A stretch of 42,002 nucleotides of DNA, taken from assembly GCA_026390075.1 (NCBI GenBank), contig JAPLGP010000020.1, forward strand, positions 1 to 42,002, written 5' to 3'. The position numbers and the translations under genes were made by a program. This DNA is from Campylobacterales bacterium (lineage in GTDB: Bacteria > Campylobacterota > Campylobacteria > Campylobacterales > Sulfurimonadaceae). The notes under the pieces are model-generated. The model did not search any database and was not told the origin of the DNA. It was given only the letters and a program-made list of their open reading frames with translations. Shown piece after piece: positions 31,983 through 38,151 of this stretch; positions within the stretch are counted from its first letter, which is position 1, and each line of letters begins with the position of its first letter.

Positions 31983-32513
31983 ATGGCAAATGTAGGAATT
32001 TTTGTAGGAAGCAGTGGCGGAGTAACACTTGGAGCGGCAGAGAAATTACAAGAGTTATTTGAGGATTCAGAACTCATCAACATGGAAGAGGATTATGATG
32101 GACTTGAACAATTCGATGATTTTGATATTTTACTCATCGGAAGCTCCACTTGGGGACAGGGCGACCCACAACGAGATTGGGTCGATGTTTTGTATGAGAT
32201 GCAAAATGATGCGCCAGATTTAAGTGGCAAAAAGGTTGCATTTTTTGGAGCAGGAGATCAAAAAACACATGGCGAACACTTTGTAAGTGCTTTGGCAAAA
32301 ATGGAAGAAATATTTAAGAAGTGCGGTGCAAAAACTGGTTTTGGCTACACCTCGACTGCTGGATATGAGTATAAACTTTCTTTAGCAGAGAAAGATGGAA
32401 AATTCTGCGGACTTGCGATAGACGACATCAACCAAAAAGATGCAACATCTAAAAGAGTGAGTGCATGGGCAGAACAACTCAAAAAAGAGATGGGCATAGA
32501 CGATGATGACTAG
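31983..32513 (+). CDS. Flavodoxin, likely electron donor to nitrogenase
   Basis: This 176-residue FMN protein has the phosphate-binding loop GIFVGSSGGVTLGAA at residues 4-18. Ser stands in GSSGGVT where most flavodoxins have GTxTGNT, a mild departure. The isoalloxazine loops STWGQGDPQRDW (about 57) and GAGDQKTHGEHFV (about 92) are intact, and the length class is long-chain. Its place inside the nif operon suggests a NifF role. AGGAG precedes the ATG. Confidence 0.93.
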   Translation: MANVGIFVGSSGGVTLGAAEKLQELFEDSELINMEEDYDGLEQFDDFDILLIGSSTWGQGDPQRDWVDVLYEMQNDAPDLSGKKVAFFGAGDQKTHGEHFVSALAKMEEIFKKCGAKTGFGYTSTAGYEYKLSLAEKDGKFCGLAIDDINQKDATSKRVSAWAEQLKKEMGIDDDD

Positions 32514-32853
32514 ATTACAAGAGTTTGAAACACTCACAGACACAGAAGAGTTTTTTGATTTTTTTAATGTGGAGTATGATGAGAAATTGGTCTATGTCAA
32601 ACGCTTTCATATCATGAAAAAGTATGGAGAAATGCTTGCAAAAGCTAAAGAACAGGAGTTTGTAAACGATGAGATAAAACTCAATTTTTACAAATTTGCA
32701 CTCATAAGTGTGTATAAAAATTTTGAAAATGGATACGCTCCATCTGCTGCAGATATCTGGTCGATGTTTGATAAACCTTCGGCATGTGGAAGTTGTTCGA
32801 CGGCTACGAGTTGCAATTCAGTTGAGGAGGTTTCAAGTGGAGTTCACGCCTAA
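32503..32853 (+). CDS. nifW: NifW, nitrogenase stabilising/protective protein
   Basis: This 116-residue protein matches NifW (EEFFDFFNVEYDEKLVYVKR, then HIMKKYGEMLA), which binds the MoFe protein and is thought to protect it from oxygen. It overlaps the flavodoxin end by 11 bp. The C-terminal tail (CGSCSTATSCNSVEEVSSG) is Cys/Ser rich and atypical. It ends in the first copy of a 37-bp direct repeat, and with that copy removed the frame would end differently (CTSQPNLSFN). One GGCATGTGG word lies at 32781-32789. Confidence 0.88.
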   Translation: MMTRLQEFETLTDTEEFFDFFNVEYDEKLVYVKRFHIMKKYGEMLAKAKEQEFVNDEIKLNFYKFALISVYKNFENGYAPSAADIWSMFDKPSACGSCSTATSCNSVEEVSSGVHA

Positions 32854-32917
32854 AGCATTAAAGACTGCTCTTGCTTTTATAATTCAGTTGAGGAGGTTTC
32901 AAGTGGAGTTCACGCCT
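32815..32917 (+). repeat. 37-bp direct repeat duplicating the nifZ ribosome-binding site and start
   Basis: The 37 bases at 32815-32851 recur exactly at 32881-32917, offset 66 bp (22 codons). Each copy holds GAGGAGG, 6 bases, then GTG. The 29 bp between the copies stays open in the nifZ frame. Confidence 0.92.
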
Positions 32918-33298
32918 GCACAAGCCAACCAAATCTCAGCTTCAACTAAAGATGAAATTCTTCCTGTTTTTCATTTAGGGCAGAGAGTTCGTATTACAAA
33001 ACCTATAAAAAATGACGGCTCAAACCCGTTCCATGAACCAAATGCTGTTTTAGTTCCTACAGGTGCTGAGGGGTATGTCAAGTTTATCGGCGATTGGCTT
33101 CAAGTGATTCGCATCTATGAGGTGCATTTCATAGAAGAAGGCGATACTTACGGGTGTCGTGAAGCGGAGTTAGAAGCCATAGACGATGTCGATGGTTACG
33201 ATGAAATAGCAGAAGAACTCAGATGGATTCGTGAACATAATGCAGAAAAAGAAGCTAAAAAAGCTCTCAATTTGCAATCCCAAAGAGAAGGAGAATAA
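32903..33298 (+). CDS. nifZ: NifZ
   Basis: This protein of about 131 residues matches NifZ, needed to mature the second P-cluster of the MoFe protein. The core HLGQRVRITKPIKNDG and GAEGYVKFIGDWLQ, with the YEVHF strand, is characteristic. I chose GTG 32903 (GAGGAGG 6 bases before it) because it gives the usual family length. An identical signal and in-frame GTG at 32837 would add 22 residues (starting MEFTPKALKTALAFIIQ) and overlaps nifW, which would allow coupling. Both forms may be made. The tail after residue 100 is charged. Confidence 0.88.
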   Translation: MEFTPAQANQISASTKDEILPVFHLGQRVRITKPIKNDGSNPFHEPNAVLVPTGAEGYVKFIGDWLQVIRIYEVHFIEEGDTYGCREAELEAIDDVDGYDEIAEELRWIREHNAEKEAKKALNLQSQREGE

Positions 33299-33793: not shown

Positions 33794-34309
33794 TTAATTT
33801 TCTAAAGATTTAATTTTAAGTAAAATATCCTCTTCATTTTTAAAATCCACATGCAGTAAAAACAGTTGTGAAACACTTTTTTCTATGGTTTTATCAAACT
33901 TATATACGCTAAAACTATTTATTTCCCCAAGATAATCAACACTAAATTCACTATCGGCACTTAATGGAAGGAAAAGTTTTTTAAGTGATTCAAGTCTGTA
34001 AAGTTTAAAATCTTTTACAATATAGGCTATGTAAGGATTGTATCTGTTATGCAGGGAATTTGAACTTTGCAAAAGCAGTGCATTTTCTTTGGTTTCTTGA
34101 TTTAAAATAGTTGGTTGACCCAGTGCTAAAGAGAAATCTAAAAAAAATACTTTCTTTAAAAGTTGTTGCTCTTTTATCTGATTTACCTCTTTTTTATAGA
34201 AGCTGTTGGAATGGTTGAGTGAAGCGTAACTTTTATATAAAAACAGCATCATTATGGAAAGAATAGTAATAGATATAAGTAATTCTATAAGAGTAAAACC
34301 TTTTTTCAT
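33794..34309 (-). CDS. Type II secretion minor pseudopilin (GspJ-like)
   Basis: This 171-residue protein has the class III prepilin signal MKKGFTLIELLISITIL, cut after Gly by the prepilin peptidase, then a hydrophobic helix and a globular domain. It overlaps the preceding pseudopilin gene by 4 bp. Last place in the operon and its size suggest GspJ, but minor pseudopilins are too divergent to assign firmly by eye. It may cap the pseudopilus with GspK and GspI. Confidence 0.75.
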   Translation of the reverse strand: MKKGFTLIELLISITILSIMMLFLYKSYASLNHSNSFYKKEVNQIKEQQLLKKVFFLDFSLALGQPTILNQETKENALLLQSSNSLHNRYNPYIAYIVKDFKLYRLESLKKLFLPLSADSEFSVDYLGEINSFSVYKFDKTIEKSVSQLFLLHVDFKNEEDILLKIKSLEN

Positions 34310-34770
34310 TTTACTTTCAGCCTAAGTAGAGCGATGGATGAGTCATCTGTCTTGAAAACTGTTTTTCCTATTTCAAAAACCATATTAGAATGAACAGTTT
34401 GATTTTCTTTGCTCGATTCTAATTTTTCTTTTTCTCTGTTTTTATCGTCATATTCACTCATATCTATCTGCTTAACTTTTTGATACACTATCTCAACTTT
34501 ATTTTTTTTAAGCTCACTATTCAGGGCATCATTTACTTTAAAATCACTTACCAAATCATCTAAGTTAACATGTTTTGTCTCAAAACCATAGTCTGGATTT
34601 GCTAGAAAGAGTGAAGCGTATTGATTCATTTTTACTTGTTTTGTGAGTTGTGAAAATATATGTGTGTTATTTGCAAACATTTGTAAAAGAGCTAAAATTA
34701 CGACGGAGATAATCATAACCGCCACCATAACTTCTATGAGCGTAAAAGCTCGTTTAGCTCTTTTGCACAT
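34306..34770 (-). CDS. Type II secretion minor pseudopilin (GspI/GspH-like)
   Basis: This 154-residue protein opens MCKRAKRAFTLIEVMVAVMI, a prepilin signal with Ala (not Gly) before the cleaved Phe, a known but less common variant. The helix continues to about residue 35. The rest is Lys/Glu rich, with a charged run around YDDKNREKEKLESSKEN. It overlaps gspE by 17 bp. A variant word, GGCATGTGC, lies at its start (34765-34773). Assignment to I or H is uncertain. Confidence 0.75.
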   Translation of the reverse strand: MCKRAKRAFTLIEVMVAVMIISVVILALLQMFANNTHIFSQLTKQVKMNQYASLFLANPDYGFETKHVNLDDLVSDFKVNDALNSELKKNKVEIVYQKVKQIDMSEYDDKNREKEKLESSKENQTVHSNMVFEIGKTVFKTDDSSIALLRLKVK

Positions 34771-36274
34771 GCCCTAAACCAATCCTAATCGCTTCATCTA
34801 AAGATGTTTCGCCATTAAGTAACATTTGTGAGAGTTGAGCGGAGATGGTCTTTAGCCCATCTTTTTCTAACGCTATTTTGATAGTATGCTCATCCGTTGA
34901 GGTAGTCAGTAAATCTCTTACTTTATCATTCATAACCAAAAGTTCACCGATAGAACGACGACCTTTATAGCCACTATAATTACAAGTTTTACAACCAACA
35001 CTTTTAAATATTTGAGCATTTTCTTTTAAGTTGTAATACTCCGCAAATTCCTCAGCGATTATGTCCTCTTCTTTGCACATATCACAAAGTACGCGCACAA
35101 GTCTTTGAGCCAAAATACCAAGGAGTGAAGATGAGATAAGAAATGGTTGTATTCCCATGTCTGAAAGCCTAGAGATGGTCGCTGCTGCTGAGTTTGTATG
35201 AAGTGTTGAAAAAACCAAGTGACCTGTAAGTGCTGCACGAACAGCGATTGCAGCTGTCTCTTCATCACGAATTTCCCCTATCATGATAACATCGGGGTCT
35301 TGTCTTAAAATCGAGCGAAGTGCCGCTGCAAAGGTCAATCCCACTTTTTCGTTTACTTGAATTTGAGAAATATTGTCTGACTTGTACTCTACTGGGTCTT
35401 CAACTGTCAAAAGATTTTTCTCAGGTTCTTCAACTTCTCGCAAAAAGGAGTGAAGTGAAGTTGTTTTACCACTTCCAGTAGGTCCTGTTACGAGTATGAT
35501 GCCATGCGAAGAGCGAAGTAATTTTTTTACATCTTCGATAATCTCACTATCAAATCCAAGTTCGGTTATATCTGGGATTTGAGAACTTTGCATAAGAAGT
35601 CTCATAACAACTCTCTCACCATAGAAAGTTGGCAAGATAGAAACACGCACATCTAAACTCTCTCCAGCAATCTTTATCTGCGTTCGCCCATCTTGAGGAA
35701 TTCTCTTTTCTGAAATATCAAGGTTTGAGATAACTTTTATACGACTCACAATCAGATTTACCACTTTTTTGTCTAAATCTGCATTTTTGATGAGCATACC
35801 ATCTATGCGAAATCTTACTTCTCCTCGTTTTTCTTGCACTTCTATGTGAATATCTGAAGCTCTCTTTTTGATAGCCTGATAAAACAGAGCATTCACAAAC
35901 TTAATAATCGGAGCAGACTCTTCTGAGGTTAAAATATCGGATGAAGTGCGTAAAAAATCTGTTAAAGAAAGTTCATCTTCACTCTCTTCTTGATTTTCTT
36001 GCATAGTCACTATTGCTTTATCAGATCTTAGTTCTAAAAAGCGGTTATAGAGCCTATCGTACGAGTCTTCATCGAGCATGTACAGAGGATATTTGTTGTC
36101 GAGTTTTGAGTAAAAATTACTTGCTTGAACTAAGTATCTCTCACACATAAATGCGCAAACTTCGCCATGAAGCTCACTAAAAAGAAGATAGTTTTTTACG
36201 CTTACATCCGTGACTATATCCGATGGCTCATAAACTTCTAGTTTTATGTTGTGAAGAGGTTCGAGAGAGAGCAT
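34754..36274 (-). CDS. gspE: Type II secretion ATPase GspE
   Basis: This 506-residue cytoplasmic ATPase powers pseudopilus assembly. Walker A GPTGSGKTTSLHSF is at about residue 264, the Asp box with TVEDPVEYK follows, Walker B is DVIMIGEIRDEETAA, and the His box is HLVFSTLHTNSAA. A tetracysteine zinc motif (LCDMCKE, then CKTCNYSG) sits at about 400-425, as in GspE and PilB. The N-terminal domain is shorter than in E. coli. It starts 2 bases after gspD. Confidence 0.96.
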   Translation of the reverse strand: MLSLEPLHNIKLEVYEPSDIVTDVSVKNYLLFSELHGEVCAFMCERYLVQASNFYSKLDNKYPLYMLDEDSYDRLYNRFLELRSDKAIVTMQENQEESEDELSLTDFLRTSSDILTSEESAPIIKFVNALFYQAIKKRASDIHIEVQEKRGEVRFRIDGMLIKNADLDKKVVNLIVSRIKVISNLDISEKRIPQDGRTQIKIAGESLDVRVSILPTFYGERVVMRLLMQSSQIPDITELGFDSEIIEDVKKLLRSSHGIILVTGPTGSGKTTSLHSFLREVEEPEKNLLTVEDPVEYKSDNISQIQVNEKVGLTFAAALRSILRQDPDVIMIGEIRDEETAAIAVRAALTGHLVFSTLHTNSAAATISRLSDMGIQPFLISSSLLGILAQRLVRVLCDMCKEEDIIAEEFAEYYNLKENAQIFKSVGCKTCNYSGYKGRRSIGELLVMNDKVRDLLTTSTDEHTIKIALEKDGLKTISAQLSQMLLNGETSLDEAIRIGLGHVQKS

Positions 36275-36276
36275 TT

Positions 36277-38151
36277 TTATTTGTCTCCTGAGATAGTATT
36301 TACTTGACTTGTACTATTTTGTGTATCAGAAGTTTTTATTTTCCCTTTCTCTTCTATTATCTTGAAAATTTTATCGTTATATTCTTTTTGAAGGTTTGCA
36401 AGTACGCCCAAATCTTGTTGCAACTGAGATAATTTTTCACTTTTATCTATAACGAAAGGTGTTAAAATGACTATCAAATTATCTTTTTCATTTGTTGTGG
36501 ATGTGGATGAAAAGAGGTATTCGCCAAGTAAAGGGATGCTTCCTAAAATAGGAAGTTTACTTTCACTTGTTACATCATAGTTTTTTACAAGACCACCTAT
36601 GATGATGCTCTCTCCATGACGAAGAATGGCTTGTGTTTTAACTTCTTGTTTGGATGTAATAGGTTGTCCAGTTGTATTATTTTTACCATCATCTAAAATA
36701 TTTTCTAATTTCGTCTCAACATCTAGGGTTACTTTATCAACAGATGAAACACGAGGTTTGATTTTTAATGTCAAACCAACTTCTTCTCTTTTGAAGCTAT
36801 TTGTGAGTCCTACGCTTGAGATAGCGTTGGTACTAGAGATAGAACCAGTTGCGATAGAGATAGTTTTACCAACATAGATGGAAGACTCTTTGTTATTTAC
36901 GCAAAGTATAGATGGGTTGGATAAAGATTTTGAAGCACCGTTGGTTTGTAAGAAATCTATCGCTGCACCTAAAGCAAAACCAGAGTCTAAGTTTTTTGGA
37001 AGAGTTATGAGTGTGGATGCTGCTTTGGAAATAGAAGCACCACCAAAGTTTGACGATAAAGAATAAAGTCCACCGCTTGAACTCACAAGCGCACCATCAA
37101 AGCCCCACTTGACGCCCAGAGCTTCGGTATTGTTTTTATTGATTTCTATCACTCTTGCTTGAACATAGACCTGATATTTTTCCATATCGAGTTCATCAAT
37201 GATATATTTTATACCTTTTACAGCTTCTGGTTCACCAACCACAATGATGGCATTTATCTCTTCACTCATAGATACATTTGGTTTGAGTGTCGGGTCAGGA
37301 TAAACTTGCTTTGAAATGATTTCAGTCAAACTTGCCAAAACTGCTTTGGCATCGGAGTTTTTAAGATTAAAAATCTGAACACTGTTGGTAATATTTGATT
37401 CCACATCAAGTTTTTTAACAAGAGCTTCTACAACTTTTGAATTCTCTTTATTTGCAACAATGATAATTGAATTTGTATTGTCATCCAAAATGATTTTAAC
37501 TGCATCTGCGGCTACTTGTTCATTAAAAAGTGACTTAGATATATCTGCAAGTTTTGCTTGAAGTTTTTTGCCCTCTGCAAATTTAATAGGTACTATTTTT
37601 ACAGTTGCCTGAATATTTGTATCTATATCTTGAATAACTTTTTTTATAGTTTCAATATTTTTAGGGTAGTCCGTAATAAGGAGAGTATTGCTCTCTTTCA
37701 TCGTCATGAGTTTTGCAGTTTTTGAGATAAGATAACGGATTTTAGCCGCTATGACATCTACATTTTCCCCATTAATCACGATAGCTTGGGTCACCATGAG
37801 TGAACCATCAAGACTTTTTCCCTGTGATGCAACTTTGAGATTACTTTGCGCGGCATCTGCTGAACGCACTATCTCATACAAAGAACCATTTTGTACAAGA
37901 GTAAAACCCTTTGATTCCAAAACAGATATTAAAATACCCATAAGTTCATCATCATACACGGCAGTTGAACTTACAAAATCAACTGTACCGCTCACTTTGT
38001 TGTTAATCAAAATATTTTTATTTGTAATCTTGGATACCAACTTGATAAAATCATCTATCTCTAAATTTGAGAAGTTGACATTTACCTGCTCTCTTGCTGA
38101 AACAACTAACACTAAACAAAGTGTTAAAAATAGTACTCTAACGAATTTCAT
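36277..38151 (-). CDS. gspD: Type II secretion secretin GspD
   Basis: This 624-residue outer-membrane channel has a signal peptide (VRVLFLTLCLVLVVSA), then N0 (VNVNFSNLEIDDFIKLVSKI) and repeated N1-N3 domains in the periplasm. The C-terminal secretin core has VYVQARVIEINKNN, then EVGLTLKIKPRV and the closing LPILGSIPLLGEYLFSS. The S domain is short, and no pilotin gene is seen nearby. It overlaps the gspC-like gene by 14 bp. Its position before gspE is canonical. Confidence 0.95.
   Translation of the reverse strand: MKFVRVLFLTLCLVLVVSAREQVNVNFSNLEIDDFIKLVSKITNKNILINNKVSGTVDFVSSTAVYDDELMGILISVLESKGFTLVQNGSLYEIVRSADAAQSNLKVASQGKSLDGSLMVTQAIVINGENVDVIAAKIRYLISKTAKLMTMKESNTLLITDYPKNIETIKKVIQDIDTNIQATVKIVPIKFAEGKKLQAKLADISKSLFNEQVAADAVKIILDDNTNSIIIVANKENSKVVEALVKKLDVESNITNSVQIFNLKNSDAKAVLASLTEIISKQVYPDPTLKPNVSMSEEINAIIVVGEPEAVKGIKYIIDELDMEKYQVYVQARVIEINKNNTEALGVKWGFDGALVSSSGGLYSLSSNFGGASISKAASTLITLPKNLDSGFALGAAIDFLQTNGASKSLSNPSILCVNNKESSIYVGKTISIATGSISSTNAISSVGLTNSFKREEVGLTLKIKPRVSSVDKVTLDVETKLENILDDGKNNTTGQPITSKQEVKTQAILRHGESIIIGGLVKNYDVTSESKLPILGSIPLLGEYLFSSTSTTNEKDNLIVILTPFVIDKSEKLSQLQQDLGVLANLQKEYNDKIFKIIEEKGKIKTSDTQNSTSQVNTISGDK

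Follow-up and report, generated by a model that had tools for sequence, protein, structure and literature searches.

Template-switch events and short templated insertions have been described as FoSTeS/MMBIR and, in Acinetobacter, as SPDIR; SPDIR mostly substitutes bases rather than adding them. According to the accessible part of one study, S. thermophilus Cas1-Cas2 integrates in vitro at non-CRISPR sites, with G preferred, and these off-target sites mimic the leader-repeat junction (PMC6895254). As to the genes considered here, in Azotobacter the immature MoFe protein is bound first by NifW and then by NifZ (PMC6016461), and knockout of nifW or nifZ in Leptolyngbya brings nitrogenase activity to <10% (PMC6428710), as far as the available sections of these two papers go. 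Because of these roles, the effects of changes to the NifW tail and of an extension to NifZ are testable. Our literature search, with subscription papers mostly outside its coverage, found nothing on the nifW-nifZ locus reported here or on rdgB-derived insertions in nif genes, and the parts of PMC8616872, PMC13034035, and PMC6147917 that were accessible held nothing decisive.

The window, by which we mean the whole 42,002-nt stretch of DNA analyzed, is contig C54 of a Sulfurimonas genome, G000 (below, the own genome); its plus strand holds a nif cluster. At the nifW-nifZ junction we found an exact 37-nt direct repeat, 66 nt from start to start (Table 1), which bears out both the perfect 37-bp repeat and the 22-codon offset claimed in the preliminary description. 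No close direct repeat in the window is longer, and since the runner-up measures 22 nt at 91%, chance is excluded as its origin. No other exact direct repeat of at least 18 nt within 300 nt was present in the window. Each copy contains a Shine-Dalgarno (SD) sequence, GAGGAGG, with 6 nt between it and a GTG codon. Both GTGs lie in a single frame with no stop between them, so that two SD sequences and two start codons share one open frame, as expected of a dual-start gene. The doubling of SD and GTG in frame, with one start inside nifW and one beyond it, had likewise been described correctly.

Table 1. Features of the nifW-nifZ junction (positions in the window)
Feature	Position	Strand	Description
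Repeat copy 1	32815-32851	+	SD GAGGAGG 32824-32830, GTG 32837-32839 (start 1); overlaps nifW end
Insert, 29 bp	32852-32880	-	Fragment of rdgB (Ham1, XTP/dITP pyrophosphatase), antisense to nif; encodes IKARAVFNA
Repeat copy 2	32881-32917	+	SD GAGGAGG 32890-32896, GTG 32903-32905 (start 2); corresponds to relatives' nifZ start
nifW, truncated	32503-32853	+	Pfam PF03206 NifW, E=1.1e-18; alignment with 28 relatives; junction comparison
nifZ	32903-33298 (from start 2)	+	Pfam PF04319 NifZ, E=1.4e-22; 131 aa, ancestral form

Comparison with related genomes indicates which arrangement came first. A single scan of public genomes, with NifZ in its 131-aa form as query, yielded 30 nifZ loci, all 30 of whose junctions were read; the nearest to the window belong to Sulfurimonas MAGs. 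The duplication was found in none of the 30, every orthologous nifW-nifZ junction being single copy and lying inside the gene overlap. Counted from the first base of the nifZ start, the nifW stop begins 44 nt downstream in 29 of these relatives and 41 nt downstream in L043, giving overlaps of 47 nt and 44 nt, respectively. The nifZ start is ATG in 26/30 and GTG, as in the window, in L014, L015, L016, and L027. Because all 30 junctions are single copy, the 66 bp is, by this comparison, a derived insertion that is so far private to one genome.

The insertion is more than a repeated stretch. A simple 66-bp tandem duplication was rejected, the middle 29 bp being unlike either flank by eye; of the 66 bp, these 29 do not belong to the locus and derive from rdgB, a point that the preliminary description missed. 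We searched 135 genomes of the genus, including the own genome, for the 29-bp pattern, allowing up to 3 mismatches. Matches occurred in 12 of the 134 other genomes, and a reversed-pattern control gave 0. At all 7 loci that were read, the match lies antisense within rdgB (the copy in L117 has a Ham1 Pfam match at E=6.8e-54), and two of the five remaining hits, which were left unread, are letter-identical to the rdgB of L111 and L112. Of the 32 mismatches across the 12 hits, 30 fall at third codon positions of the rdgB frame. On the pattern of these matches, the 29 bp is a genuine rdgB fragment and not a chance resemblance.

The inserted bases match a template elsewhere, in congener rdgB genes, at best with 2 mismatches in 29. 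In five relatives located through the neighbor of rdgB (L111-L115), the best rdgB site differs by 2, 2, 9, 5, and 6 bases, respectively. We found no second copy of the 29 bp in the own genome at up to 3 mismatches, and neither half was found within 1 mismatch; an intragenomic copy as source was therefore rejected in the own-genome searches. An excision scar of an insertion sequence (IS) with target-site duplication was also rejected, the insert being rdgB coding sequence with no second genomic copy. A phage, plasmid, or viral source found no support either: viral contigs gave 0 exact 21-mer hits, and blastn against phages and plasmids gave only chance-level similarity (E of 0.6 or worse among the matches listed).

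The search for the donor led to a gap in the assembly's gene content. The Ham1 family (PF01725) is absent from the own assembly and present in all 14 control genomes, and the MFS gene that neighbors rdgB in five relatives is absent as well. For 9-12 kb, contig C21 of the own genome is collinear with the relatives' region (84-85% identity), as far as the gene adjoining rdgB; it then enters sequence found at 20 places, nearly all of them contig ends. The genes infC, thrS, and ilvD, as we take the next genes in the relatives' region to be from reading, were not found in the 1.913 of 2.403 Mb of the own genome that was searched. It appears that rdgB, which encodes a nucleotide-pool sanitation enzyme, may have been truly lost or may lie in an assembly gap; in the second case, the exact donor could be the own copy.

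Some features of this region deserve mention in their own right. The last 140 bases of C21 (L174), together with about 19 other places, represent an IS-like repeat of at least 140 bases that breaks the assembly, and one copy of this multi-copy repeat sits just past the expected beginning of rdgB. The own genome is rated 99.99% complete, yet it is without a Ham1/RdgB family gene.

With rdgB and its MFS neighbor missing, the assembly may not be gap-free, and C21 ends in multi-copy sequence next to where rdgB would be expected. These are the circumstances in which a chimeric nifWZ-rdgB molecule could have been assembled as genuine sequence. We consider such an assembly or library artifact very unlikely, however: template switching would have to occur twice and lead back to the same locus within 37 bp, reads of usual length exceed the repeat, and the site lies inside a 42-kb contig with the nifZ frame still open.

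We postulate that the 66 bp arose as a private templated insertion through a replication accident, that both GTGs are used, and that the loss of the NifW tail is mild; we give this explanation as a whole a probability of about 0.6. The insertion consists of a 37-bp local copy plus 29 bp of antisense rdgB, or up to 32 bp if shared end bases are counted. Depending on the rdgB compared, the insert and its possible donors have a T in common at the left end and A or AA at the right, so that the donor piece is 29-32 bp long and junction microhomology amounts to 0-1 bp on the left and 0-2 bp on the right. Because microhomology is 0-2 bp only, the junctions are no proof of template switching. We infer one replication-fork accident, in which either the template was switched in two jumps or a short rdgB single strand was captured. 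In the former, synthesis would leave nifZ after GCCT, copy a short stretch of rdgB, and resume 37 bp back at AATTC; in the latter, which would give the same trace, a short rdgB single strand would be taken up from outside. The ancestral nifZ signal persists unchanged as start 2, and an identical second signal now stands at the end of nifW. The exact donor is unseen, and that the nearest congener rdgB is 2 of 29 bases off counts against a templated insertion.

A further difficulty for a templated insertion is its length. The value of 66 is also the period of type II CRISPR arrays in the genus, a match that the templated-insertion reading leaves to chance. An alternative hypothesis is that a type II Cas1-Cas2 complex put a 30-bp prespacer from the host's rdgB into the nifW-nifZ junction, duplicating a 36-bp non-repeat target as though it were a repeat, and that the complex has since been lost or was left unassembled; the 37th repeat base would then be a chance match. 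The geometry agrees, since 36 + 30 = 66: in 8 arrays beside genus cas1 loci, with 36-bp repeats, a distance of exactly 66 separates the repeats in 108 of 112 cases, so that the duplicated and inserted lengths equal the repeat and spacer of the lineage's type II system. Cas9 was confirmed beside all 7 of these arrays that were scanned for it. The genome of L015, a close nifZ relative, has cas1 and cas9, although its examined contig carries no array. The inserted bases form a clean fragment of a different gene, and on the minus strand the target has the same border bases, G...T, as genus repeats. If this hypothesis were true, CRISPR integrases would in nature be introducing short duplications, in frame, into genes of their hosts, here creating a second gene start, and natural genomes would show off-target adaptation at work as a source of mutation.

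We nevertheless regard it as unlikely. Neither cas1 nor cas9 was found in the own genome, whose assembly may have gaps, and cas1 occurs in 23/60 genomes of the genus. The target is unlike genus repeats (the best of 16 comparisons gave p=0.032, uncorrected and not significant), and its flanks are unlike the leader side. That the in vitro off-target sites mimic a leader-repeat junction, as noted above, weighs in the same direction. The 36 + 30 geometry was noticed after the fact, and period 66 occurs elsewhere in the own genome, in a listing that left out L135, a repeat-rich stretch. L096:9945-10077 (contig C40) is a pure tandem duplication of that period with a 67-bp match, and L146:890-1047 (contig C45) is an imperfect tandem repeat of that period that includes a 37 + 29 pair.

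The insertion also cuts the gene upstream. That the insertion altered the end of nifW had been proposed from the start, and the proposal is upheld: with one repeat unit removed in silico, the nifW frame reads through to ...HACTSQPNLSFN, restoring the ending seen in relatives. The present stop, TAA at 32851-32853, is a product of the junction between copy 1 and the insert. As a result, nifW stops 10 codons early, and the ancestral 47-nt overlap has given way to a 17-nt overlap with start 1 and a 49-nt gap before start 2. NifW of the window has 115/116 aa; among the 30 relatives, 28 have a NifW of 125 aa and two have one of 124 aa. In an alignment that included 28 of the relatives, the window protein is short by exactly the last ten residues. 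The four Cys of the tail are invariant in 30/30 relatives, and the window loses the fourth; given this invariance, the loss might be non-neutral. The codon of the fourth Cys also encodes NifZ residues in the other frame, and conservation alone is therefore no proof of its importance for NifW.

Two lines of evidence point to a small effect. NifW residues 92-125 have pLDDT <50 in the AlphaFold model and are predicted to be disordered, and the Pfam NifW match covers residues 5-78 only, which together make it plausible, on the predicted structure, that losing residues 116-125 is mild. The bodies of nifW and nifZ compared with those of L014-L016 gave dN of 0.02-0.09 and dS of 0.29-0.80, that is, ordinary constraint, and decay of NifW following truncation was rejected for want of a dN/dS sign in the same comparison. 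Separately, we observed that the NifW tail in these Campylobacterota (L014-L043) has the motif C-x2-C-x5-C-x12-C, beyond the Pfam NifW match, and that the last part of this Cys tail is encoded inside the nifZ overlap.

Downstream, translation from start 1 would give a NifZ of 153 aa, with a 22-residue N-terminal extension and a frame open to the stop at 33298. Start 1 overlaps nifW by 17 nt, and start 2 lies 49 nt past the nifW stop. The NifZ domain begins at residue 43 of the 153-aa form, and the extension precedes it. The two starts had been called equal, which holds for their letters and fails for their context, in that predicted opening energies differ and start 1 closely precedes the nifW stop. 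With flanks of 35-100 nt, opening is predicted to cost 8.5-10.5 kcal/mol at start 1 and 10.2-15.1 kcal/mol at start 2, against a mean of 10.7 kcal/mol (sd 2.4) in 29 relatives at 50-nt flanks, L037 omitted. No strong local RNA structure was found over 171 nt (z-score, +1.30). Re-initiation could occur at start 1, just before the new nifW stop. Because start 1 is predicted to be easier to open and lies just ahead of that stop, we expect both GTGs to be used by ribosomes. Start 2 would then supply the normal 131-aa NifZ and start 1 some of the 153-aa form, whose extension would be tolerated.

Use of both starts is a smaller claim than retention for a function. The duplication might have been kept for higher NifZ output or for two isoforms with different roles, since the SD and GTG copies are identical and in frame, the 29-bp insert is stop-free, start 1 is the more accessible by the predicted energies above, and the placement of the nifW stop just past start 1 would favor re-initiation. 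We consider this improbable: the arrangement occurs in one genome only (0/30 relatives); the identity of the two copies suits a recent event, which would have left little time for tuning; the extension comes from antisense rdgB, and blocks of residues 1-40 in the model of the 153-aa form have low confidence, with mean pLDDT of 44-49; and the cost is the NifW tail. We saw no sign of selection as a regulatory device, and no benefit was evident. A rare error of DNA copying seems a better description of the insertion than a designed switch.

One further sequence feature was encountered in the own genome. An uptake-sequence-like motif has the consensus TTGGCATGTGGAAAT, and GGCATGTGGA is the most over-represented 10-mer, with 1044 copies in 1.913 Mb where about 1 is expected; 50 inverted pairs of the motif lie within 12 nt. 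The window has 15 sites of the 11-mer (3205, 3222, 9419, 11503, 14772, 14785, 20506, 26334, 28265, 30302, 32781, 39153, 39351, 41639, and 41751), and 10 of its 23 nine-mer sites fall in the roughly 13% of DNA outside listed genes. Stretches of G083 and G087 are also rich in the nine-mer (24 in 40 kb and 9 in 14 kb, respectively); it is sparse in G135, G085, and G084 and at zero in 9 other genomes of the genus, of which 12-34 kb each were sampled. Directly downstream of the nif cluster, on the minus strand at 33794-38151, is a set of type II secretion or pilus-like genes encoding two proteins with N-terminal methylation motifs, a T2SSE ATPase, and a secretin; machinery of this kind can serve DNA uptake. 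We know of no DNA uptake sequence in Campylobacterota, and a limited literature search found none. The motif looks like a DNA uptake sequence, judging by its abundance, and it may be more interesting than the nifZ duplication.

The duplicated start signal is thus confirmed; its anatomy is real and unusual, and the class of its cause is ordinary. New here are the rdgB origin of the middle 29 bp and the missing NifW tail. Read as a templated insertion, the locus illustrates cleanly, through one event, that a short insertion can create a second in-frame start and re-cut an overlapping gene pair in a nitrogenase-maturation operon.

Compared with the nifW-nifZ junctions of Sulfurimonas, Sulfurovum, and Sulfuricurvum, the window is alike in its genes, in the SD sequence (GAGGAGG nearly throughout), and in having GTG or ATG at the position of start 2; these relatives differ in having one start, an overlap of 47 nt (44 in one), and a NifW tail ten residues longer. 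It resembles off-target Cas1-Cas2 integration, as given in the accessible part of the in vitro study (PMC6895254), in a duplication of about 36 bp around a 30-bp insert and differs from it in that the assembly is without cas genes or similarity to repeat or leader, and in being a single event. In relation to FoSTeS/MMBIR and SPDIR, the window differs in that its exact donor is unseen and its mechanism is read from sequence; with them it shares a short segment from an unlinked gene, a flanking local duplication, and scant junction homology.
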